From assembly GCA_020428465.1 (NCBI GenBank), contig JAGQMY010000025.1:1-48762 (forward strand): DNA of 48,762 nt, in the 5' to 3' direction. The notes below the pieces were generated by a model that was given only the letters and a program-made list of their open reading frames with translations, had not been told where the DNA came from and made no database searches. The DNA is from Candidatus Saccharimonadota bacterium (lineage in GTDB: Bacteria; Patescibacteriota; Saccharimonadia; Saccharimonadales; SZUA-47). This document shows positions 119-21,106 of this stretch, in pieces (positions within the stretch are counted from its first letter, which is position 1; the number at the start of each line of letters is the position of its first letter). The position numbers and the translations under genes are program-made.

Positions 119-676
119 GTGGGTTACGTGATATTAGCAGTCGTTGGTCTTTTAGTAATAGTTTTAATCGGTATTTACAATGGCCTGATCAAAACAAAAA
201 TTCGTGTTGATGAAGCATGGAGCGATATAACCGTCCAGCTAAAACGGCGAGTTGATCTGATTCCAAACTTAGTGGAAACAGTTAAGGGTTATGCAAAGCA
301 CGAAAAAGGTGTATTTGAAGAAGTAACTAAAGCAAGAGCAGCTATGACAGGTGCAAGCGGTGTCGCTGAAACGGCTGCTGCAGACAATATGTTGAGCGGT
401 GCACTAAAGAGCCTTTTCGCAGTAGCAGAAGCATATCCTGACCTAAAAGCAAATGAAAACTTCAAAGACCTCCAAGCAGAATTGGTAGATACTGAAGATA
501 AAATTCAAGCTGCTCGTCGTTTCTATAACGCCGCTGTTCGAGATTTCAATACGAAAGTAAAAGTTTTCCCAACAGTAATCTTTGCTGGAATGTTAGGATT
601 CAAGGAAAGAGAATTTTTCGAACTTGAAGAAGCAGAGCAAGCTGCAGCTGAAAAACCAGTAGACGTTAAATTCTAA
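119..676 (+). CDS. lemA: LemA family protein
   Basis: 185 residues, normal LemA length. One N-terminal membrane helix (about residues 3-22) is followed by the family signature: EAWSDI, then LKRRVDLIPNLVETVKGYA, then long amphipathic helices ending in a Glu/Ala-rich tail. LemA proteins are membrane-anchored helical bundles of uncertain role that are very often encoded beside the HtpX protease. That pairing is present here, with one ORF inserted between them (716-1114). GTG start supported by AAGGAG at 7 nt. Family assignment is firm; function beyond envelope association is not known. Confidence 0.93.
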   Translation: MGYVILAVVGLLVIVLIGIYNGLIKTKIRVDEAWSDITVQLKRRVDLIPNLVETVKGYAKHEKGVFEEVTKARAAMTGASGVAETAAADNMLSGALKSLFAVAEAYPDLKANENFKDLQAELVDTEDKIQAARRFYNAAVRDFNTKVKVFPTVIFAGMLGFKEREFFELEEAEQAAAEKPVDVKF

Positions 677-681
677 GAAAA

Positions 682-716
682 CGTATAGTGTATAGCGGAT
701 ATCGTATTACGTATTA
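682..716 (+). repeat. Heptad repeat array, forward (5 units)
   Basis: Five uninterrupted 7-bp units of consensus CGTATNN, in phase (units at 682, 689, 696, 703, 710). The third unit is degenerate (CGGATAT). The array runs directly into the ATG of the four-helix-bundle ORF at 716. Units 704-715 form a 12-bp perfect inverted repeat with 1120-1131 in the opposing array. Confidence 0.7.
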
Positions 717-1114
717 TGGAGAATCAAACGTATGGTGAGGGAAGTATAAAATCGTTTACCAGTTTGAGAACTTGGCAAAAAGCAAAAACATTTGTTGTTA
801 GAATATATAAAATTACTAAACATTTCCCTGAAGATGAAAAATTTGGATTGGTATCACAAATTAGGCGCTCCTCAGTATCTGTAACGGCAAATATAGCCGA
901 AGGTTTTTCTCGTAATTCTGCAAACGATAAAAAACATTTTTACAGTATGAGCAAAGGATCTTTAACCGAAACATTAAGTCATTTGCACATAGCTAAAGAC
1001 CTTGGATTCATCGATTTAAAAAATTTCAAAATTCTGGAAAACGAGTGCACTGACATAAATAAGATGCTAAATGGTATGATTAAATCAGCAAAAGGAAAGG
1101 ATGCGTATACGTAA
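716..1114 (+). CDS. Four-helix-bundle protein (S23 / rRNA intervening-sequence protein family)
   Basis: 132 residues. The core FTSLRTWQKAKTFVVRIYKIT, then QIRRSSVSVTANIAEGFSR and the later SLTETLSHL match the four-helix-bundle family first described as ORFs inside 23S rRNA intervening sequences and related to the Avd accessory protein of diversity-generating retroelements. No RBS is visible before the ATG; the start and stop codons both lie within flanking heptad arrays. It separates lemA from htpX, which are normally adjacent, so it looks like an insertion. Function in this stand-alone form is unknown; a nucleic-acid-binding or mobility role is inference. Confidence 0.85.
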   Translation: MENQTYGEGSIKSFTSLRTWQKAKTFVVRIYKITKHFPEDEKFGLVSQIRRSSVSVTANIAEGFSRNSANDKKHFYSMSKGSLTETLSHLHIAKDLGFIDLKNFKILENECTDINKMLNGMIKSAKGKDAYT

Positions 1115-1146
1115 TTCTAAATACGTAATACAAAATACGAAATAAC
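1105..1146 (-). repeat. Heptad repeat array, reverse (6 units)
   Basis: Six in-phase 7-bp units, NNATACG on the plus strand (CGTATNN on the minus strand), starting at 1105, 1112, 1119, 1126, 1133 and 1140. The second and last units are degenerate. The array overlaps the last codons of the four-helix ORF and ends one base before the htpX ATG at 1147. With 682-716 it makes inverted flanks around the ORF. Confidence 0.7.
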
Positions 1147-2034
1147 ATGTATTCGGAGATTGATGCAAATAAACGCAAAACAGTTTTATTAATATTGGGT
1201 TTTGTTGTGTTTATCGGATTCTTGTCGTATTTTGGCGGACTGTATTATGGAGATTTTACAATAACAATTGGCGCCTTAATCGGGTCTATTGTGTATGCGC
1301 TTTTTAGTTATTTCGGAGCTTCTAAGGTTGCTCTAGCATTCAACGGTGCTGTAGAAATCCAAAAAAAAGATAATCCGAGGTTGTGGCGAATAGTTGAAAA
1401 TATTGCTATTACTGATGGGCTTCCGATGCCCAAAGTCCACATAATTGAAGATTCTGGATTAAATGCATTTGCAACGGGCAGAGACCCGAATCATGCTAGT
1501 GTCGCAATAACAACTGGTTTGTTAGAAATACTTGATGATTCAGAGCTAGAAGGAGTTATGGCACACGAACTGGGCCACGTTAAGAACTACGATATTAGGG
1601 TTAGTATGATTGTTTTCGGTTTAGTAATGATTGTCTCTATGCTTTCAGATATATTCTTAAGAGTAAGTTGGTATGGAGGCAGAAGGAGTAATGACGACAA
1701 CGATAATGCAAGTAATATACTGATGGTATTCGGAATCGTAGCAATGATATTAGCGCCTATCATTGCGGTGCTAATCCAATCAGCTATTTCCCGTAAAAGA
1801 GAGTATCTAGCTGATGCAACAGGTGCAATGACTACAAGATATCCTGAAGGATTAGCCAGTGCCTTAGAGAAGCTACGCGACAACAGTACTGTATTGCGCA
1901 GGCAAAATACTTCTACTGCTCATTTGTTTTTCGCAAACCCATTAAAAGGTAAGGGAATAACATCAATGTTTAGTACGCACCCACCTATAGAAGATAGGAT
2001 TGCAAAACTTAGAAGTATGGGATCAAAACTGTGA
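1147..2034 (+). CDS. htpX: HtpX-like M48 membrane zinc metalloprotease
   Basis: 295 residues, the usual size. Two N-terminal membrane helices (about 12-32 and 38-57), the zinc motif HELGH at 140-144, a second hydrophobic pair (about 152-172 and 193-215), and a downstream RKREYLADATG segment that supplies the third zinc ligand (Glu), then STHPPIEDRI near the C terminus, typical of HtpX. HtpX degrades misfolded membrane proteins in envelope stress. All catalytic residues are present. No RBS is evident; the ATG abuts the heptad array, so translation may depend on upstream lemA transcription. The 3' end overlaps the next gene by 4 nt (GTGA). Confidence 0.93.
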   Translation: MYSEIDANKRKTVLLILGFVVFIGFLSYFGGLYYGDFTITIGALIGSIVYALFSYFGASKVALAFNGAVEIQKKDNPRLWRIVENIAITDGLPMPKVHIIEDSGLNAFATGRDPNHASVAITTGLLEILDDSELEGVMAHELGHVKNYDIRVSMIVFGLVMIVSMLSDIFLRVSWYGGRRSNDDNDNASNILMVFGIVAMILAPIIAVLIQSAISRKREYLADATGAMTTRYPEGLASALEKLRDNSTVLRRQNTSTAHLFFANPLKGKGITSMFSTHPPIEDRIAKLRSMGSKL

Positions 2035-5722: not shown

Positions 5723-5750
5723 AAAGATTGGCTATAAAGGTCAATCTTTT
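5723..5750 (+). terminator. Possible terminator upstream of tRNA-Ala
   Basis: AAAGATTG (5723-5730) and CAATCTTT (5742-5749) form an 8-bp stem followed by a T-rich run. Just upstream at 5696-5720 there is a further GC-rich palindromic stretch (CGCCC ... GGGCG and CGGGT ... ACCCG). Likely ends the lemA-to-rdgB operon. The rest of 5620-5787 shows no gene. Confidence 0.35.
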
Positions 5751-5787
5751 ACATTTTACTCTTTTACTTTATACTTTTTACTTGTCT

Positions 5788-21064: not shown

Positions 21065-21106
21065 CGTATTTCGTATGACGTATAACGTATGATGTATCTT
21101 GTATTT
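21065..21106 (+). repeat. Heptad repeat array, forward (6 units)
   Basis: Six in-phase 7-bp units starting at 21065, 21072, 21079, 21086, 21093 and 21100: four CGTATNN then two TGTATNN. It follows khpA directly. No ORF and no opposing array is seen within 100 nt. Confidence 0.7.

Follow-up and report, generated by a model that had tools for sequence, protein, structure and literature searches.

Positions 682 to 1144 of the window, by which we mean the whole 48,762-nucleotide stretch of DNA analyzed here, are probably one instance of a small, widespread mobile element, in which an IVP gene lies between inverted arrays of about five heptads. Such elements share their architecture across the protein family, with a repeat unit specific to each element. 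They occupy sites that are empty in other genomes, have non-coding and solo derivatives, and are accompanied by dispersed arrays that depend on IVP. The best reading is an IVP/heptad mobile system that would work like REPIN-RAYT with no known transposase, and in which we infer IVP to be the mobilizing component.

The window copy occupies the interval between lemA and htpX, outside any rRNA gene, and a further array with the same unit stands alone elsewhere in the window:

119 to 676, plus strand: lemA, the upstream host gene; its stop lies 5 bp ahead of the left array
682 to 716, plus strand: left array of five CGTATNN heptads, beginning just past the lemA stop and reaching into the IVP start codon
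716 to 1114, plus strand: IVP ORF, 132 aa, a PF05635/TIGR02436 four-helix-bundle protein
1105 to 1144, minus strand: right array of five heptads and a partial unit, the reverse complement of the left unit
1147 to 2034, plus strand: htpX (M48 peptidase), the downstream host gene
21065 to 21106, plus strand: solo array of six CGTATNN heptads, immediately downstream of a KH-domain gene's stop codon

The left array reads CGTATAG, TGTATAG, CGGATAT, CGTATTA, CGTATTA, with an exact CGTAT in three of the five units, and its final base is the A of the ORF's ATG (716). Read on the minus strand, the right array is (TATTT), CGTATTT, TGTATTA, CGTATTT, AGAATTA, CGTATAC, one of its five units being degenerate; it contains the ORF's stop codon (1112-1114) and ends 2 bp short of the htpX ATG. 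Both arrays hold 7-bp phase, and their arms (33 nt) are 76% complementary around the ORF. In profile searches the ORF matched PF05635 (E = 1.9e-39; 134.6 bits, cut-off 33.8) and scored 134.3 bits against TIGR02436 (cut-off 24). Beyond PF05635 its matches were confined to bAvd models, which it fits weakly, and no Y1 (HUH) transposase domain was found. The original prediction of a four-helix-bundle ORF between lemA and htpX, framed by inverted arrays in 7-bp phase, with its start codon using the last base of one and its stop lying in the other, is confirmed by the unit readout, the lag-7 score, the profile match and the flanking genes, as are its five upstream units. Apart from its six downstream units, which are five and a partial one, that observation is real and general.

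The weaker of the two arrays has a lag-7 score of 20/28, a value reached at four places in the 48.8-kb window and in no simulated 170-nt Markov sequence out of 4000. These places are the left and right arrays, the solo CGTATNN array (21065-21106) and, near 5747, a TTTTACT array. The last is a period-7 array at 5745-5783, just upstream of a tRNA-like sequence and with no nearby IVP-family ORF; it may be a solo array belonging to another IVP.

The same architecture recurs throughout the family. The survey covered 137 PF05635 loci, drawn from Patescibacteria, a wide range of further bacterial phyla and two archaeal contigs. Tandem arrays flank most of them, usually in inverted orientation and with a period of 7 bp (sometimes 8-9), and the framing is present in nearly every genome tested. 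At 45 Patescibacteria loci the best flank lag-7 match averages 18.5/28, versus 11.9 at other ORFs of the same loci, while other lags are flat except 14, the double of 7, and slightly 8; the right array fits the left better in inverted than in direct orientation in 40/43. A set of 80 loci from other phyla (Proteobacteria, Bacteroidota, Clostridia, Acidobacteriota, Planctomycetes, Chloroflexota, KSB1, Methanophagales archaea and others) gives 18.0 versus 12.2 for controls, with lag 8 raised too and the inverted orientation better in 58/78. IVP loci of Xanthomonadaceae and cyanobacterial plasmids are likewise framed. As a negative control, genes for the homologue Avd from diversity-generating retroelements (DGRs) average 11.8 over 60 flanks, with a single flank at 19 or above.

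Array span has a median of 31.5 bp, or about 4-5 units. Variants include 8- or 9-bp units in an otherwise equal architecture (L044, L051, L040, L061, L073) and Bacteroidota copies whose two sides are direct rather than inverted (L154, L159, L173, L178). A Pseudanabaena copy (L068) has the longest arrays found beside an IVP, with about 15 near-perfect AAAAGCT units to its left and, in the same reading direction, about 14 AAAAGCC units to its right. One locus of the 137 lies in a 23S rRNA gene. A 23S context for most IVP loci is thereby ruled out, and the classical 23S intervening sequences appear as a minor case of the heptad element.

The repeat unit is common to both ends of an element and different between elements. 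CGTATNN, put forward originally as the end unit, holds for the window and for one relative (G002) and fails as a general unit, since the sequence varies by element. IVP proteins at least about 70% identical share a unit despite different neighbors (GAGTCAG in Nostoc and Aulosira), while below about 60% identity unit similarity falls to background. Paralogues within a genome, compared in seven genomes, reach at most 64% identity and carry distinct units; no recent near-identical duplicates were seen in those seven. This divergence, unlike that of freshly transposed insertion sequences, suggests that complete elements move rarely. The window's own genome holds five IVP loci, each with heptad-like flanks of a different unit as judged by eye; by lag-7 score two are clear (L018, L019) and three degenerate. 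One IVP gene in that genome (L022/L023, G000:C109:3811-4115) is broken, with its halves in different frames and several stops, which indicates that elements decay in place.

Comparison of the lemA-htpX interval among relatives reveals both occupied and empty states. In G002 the ORF and CGTAT arrays are both present, and the proteins are 61% identical. In seven members of the same GTDB family (G003 to G008 and G010) the region upstream of htpX contains neither ORF nor heptads, the stretch examined in G004 stopping short of lemA; the heptads are thus not fixed irrespective of the ORF. The solo array after the KH-domain gene is missing at that place in 10 relatives. Together these patterns indicate that arrays arrive with the ORF, and that at least one array occurs alone.

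Filled and empty sites are also found far from the window. In a Nostoc plasmid operon (strain C052), an IVP element with GAGTCAG arrays lies between genes 2 and 3 and the 3/4 junction is empty. In the same operon on pNsp_c of Nostoc ATCC 53789, a different IVP element, of GGGGAAA type, lies between genes 3 and 4 and the 2/3 junction is empty. Picosynechococcus PCC 7003 carries an element between cas10 and cmr3 that pAQ6 of PCC 7002 is without, and in Azospirillum lipoferum 4B one plasmid-borne 23S gene has, in helix 45, an element with inverted heptad arrays like those elsewhere in the family, which another such gene lacks. The Nostoc, Picosynechococcus and Azospirillum junctions examined showed no target duplication, and no common target for IVP elements was seen. 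The Nostoc IVP had no match among 50,697 phage records.

A non-coding derivative was found in Nostoc N6, where the IVP ORF is interrupted by a 181-bp element bearing the same GAGTCAG/AATTCAG heptads at its ends:

L082, 1060 to 1240: 181-bp Nostocales miniature element

This element occurs at 98 places on 43 plasmids, with constant ends and internal hairpins. It sits immediately before GATAA in 6/6 copies, GATAA being present in the unfilled sequence too, and target duplication is not evident. The GATAA context resembles IS200/IS605-type targeting and could reflect another enzyme. Deleted and solo-end forms were also found. Mobility is supported by the reciprocal Nostoc plasmid sites, the empty sites in the cmr operon and in 23S rRNA, and the repetitive non-coding copy within an IVP ORF.

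These sites bear on a regulatory explanation, in which IVP would be a TRAP-like RNA- or DNA-binding pentamer that autoregulates through its start and stop arrays, with the solo arrays as its regulon. The arrays do abut the relevant codons: for 47/107 right arrays a same-strand start codon lies no more than 5 bp from the array's end, and for 42/98 left arrays a stop codon lies equally close to the array's beginning. TAACTGA heptads have moreover been proposed as post-transcriptional sites (PMC4679880), and the unit follows the protein at high identity. However, close relatives have empty sites, copies lie within an ORF and within 23S rRNA, and published heptad surveys report no pattern among the functions of neighboring genes. 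A regulon would also leave the inverted ends and variable occupancy unexplained. Regulation alone is therefore an unlikely account, although it may coexist with mobility.

Solo arrays are dispersed chiefly where IVP is present. In sampled Patescibacteria DNA, heptad arrays numbered 63 over 800 kb from 21 genomes with IVP and zero over 658 kb from 15 genomes without it (Spearman 0.62, p = 5e-5, a statistic that ignores phylogeny, with the IVP-free genomes mostly of one order). These arrays are almost exclusively of period 7, with 0-7 arrays at other periods, and most lie away from any IVP. Similar arrays paired within 500 bp are inverted in 12/15 cases, and some pairs frame an IVP. Within the window, the CGTATNN unit that flanks the IVP gene recurs in a single solo array.

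The dependence extends to the identity of the unit. Across 79 Xanthomonadaceae genomes, the median number of GGGANTN arrays is 90 with IVP versus 0 without (p = 4e-9, phylogeny ignored). Where the IVP flanks are themselves of GGGANTN type, as assigned by us from flank data, the median is 304 arrays versus 12 for other IVPs (p = 4e-4, phylogeny ignored). Six IVP-free Xanthomonadaceae still have at least 10 matches each, up to 105, which are perhaps relics. IVP-linked arrays account for most of the 'unexplained' GGGAATC repeats in Xanthomonadaceae. The original comparison with a REP/RAYT mobile unit thus gains support from IVP-dependent solo arrays, in addition to empty sites and miniature derivatives.

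The protein itself offers clues to a mechanism. Eight polar residues are invariant or nearly so (Q48, R51, S55, N59, E62, R66, S82 and E85 in window numbering). Of 57 IVPs, the window's among them, all or nearly all keep the R..S...N..E motif together with S..E, and 32 Avd proteins do not; R..S...N..E was noted earlier as part of IVP conservation (PMC3936711). The solved homologues 2gsc and 2rld contain five chains each, and the title of the 2gsc paper, as cited in PMC3936711, speaks of five four-helix bundles.

A passenger explanation assigns the activity elsewhere: the arrays would be moved by an IS200/IS605 Y1 transposase or a reverse transcriptase (RT), or expanded by slippage, while IVP hitchhikes. 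Y1 genes are present in 13/16 IVP-bearing genomes tested, the IVP homologue Avd serves a reverse transcriptase, and the Nostoc miniature element has the fixed context, internal hairpins and lack of target duplication noted above. Against this, Y1 is absent from 3/16 (G032, G115, G167), among them G032 with 11 IVPs and some of the densest arrays, and RT is absent from 8/16, including the window's genome (no PF00078 match), G038 and G015. A needed RT or Y1 partner is inconsistent with these genomes, and neither enzyme can be obligatory. Array abundance, furthermore, tracks the presence of IVP and even the unit that flanks it, and slippage cannot yield inverted arrays with an element-specific unit at both ends. 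A hitchhiking IVP is accordingly improbable, marginally more so than regulation alone. A chance or compositional repeat at lemA-htpX, with no system behind it, finds some footing in the short and degenerate units but is as good as eliminated by the simulation, the control ORFs and the family-wide recurrence.

For the IVP/heptad mobile system, we propose that IVP, presumed to be a pentamer, would bind the heptad array of its own element, and the simplest fit to 4-5 units is that each subunit takes one heptad. It would pair the two inverted ends, and would drive or license the copying of array-bounded DNA into operon stop/start junctions, with no evident target duplication. It may also spread non-autonomous arrays in trans. 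Catalysis might lie with the invariant Q/R/S/N/E/R...S/E residues of IVP, or a host enzyme might supply it. An element within 23S rRNA would present its inverted arrays as a stem removed by RNase III; the Azospirillum 23S copy folds with its arrays as such a stem, and RNase III cleavage has been shown for the Coxiella IVS stem (PMC4990558). A stronger proposal, which we hold only tentatively and consider the less probable outcome, is that IVP founds a transposase or recombinase class unrelated to DDE, HUH, serine, tyrosine and RT enzymes. Its invariant residues would then catalyze strand transfer at tandem-heptad ends co-specific with the protein, and the class would be the source of most known bacterial heptamer repeat families.

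The S23/IVP protein has been known since 1993 from fragmented 23S rRNA. Its presence there, the upstream heptamers of Coxiella, dispersed heptamer repeats and IVP genes between cas genes are all known. In the open literature searched, no description of IVP genes framed by heptads was found beyond the Coxiella heptamers, and no tie between dispersed heptads and IVP was found. On present evidence the element class is new, the protein is an ordinary PF05635 member, and IVP is the presumptive mobilizer. Two puzzles, the function of S23/IVP and the origin of the Xanthomonas, cyanobacterial and other heptamer repeats, are thereby joined into one testable system. Elements of this type are spread over many bacterial phyla as well as some archaea, and they explain IVP genes misread as CRISPR-associated. 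They would add a class of transposable element with sequence-flexible tandem ends and no recognized transposase.

Among known systems, the 23S rRNA intervening sequences of Leptospira and Coxiella share a homologous S23/IVP ORF and complementary ends. In Coxiella, heptamers upstream of the ORF vary in number by strain, and the IVS has been called selfish (PMC4990558). The window copy differs in lying in a protein operon rather than in rRNA, and the heptads of the 23S sequences were previously unrecognized as paired ends, as family-wide or as tied to dispersed arrays. The DGR accessory protein Avd has a homologous fold according to the literature, and the window ORF weakly matches its bAvd model; however, Avd has no heptad arrays, adjoins a reverse transcriptase and is missing the IVP-invariant polar residues. 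The 23S_rRNA_IVP family has also been listed as CRISPR-associated (PMC3936711). The same family lies between cas genes here (cas6 and cas4, cas10 and cmr3; L068, L073), where it is better read as an insertion, the cas10-cmr3 site being empty in PCC 7002.

REPIN/RAYT is alike in that a single-copy-like protein gene is flanked by a repeat dispersed as inverted pairs and singlets. RAYT, however, is a Y1 HUH transposase and its repeats are single palindromes, whereas IVP is an unrelated four-helix bundle and its repeats are tandem heptads; as a mobile element, the IVP system fits no known transposase class. Dispersed heptamer repeats, which include the cyanobacterial STRRs, are alike in their 7-bp tandem arrays, often convergent pairs that hug stop and start codons. 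Described examples are GGGAATC in Xanthomonas and GGGGAYT in Nostoc (PMC4692102), and TAACTGA in Beggiatoaceae and cyanobacteria (PMC4679880). Those two reports assign them no source enzyme or mobile element, whereas the Xanthomonadaceae class here follows IVP presence and flank sequence.
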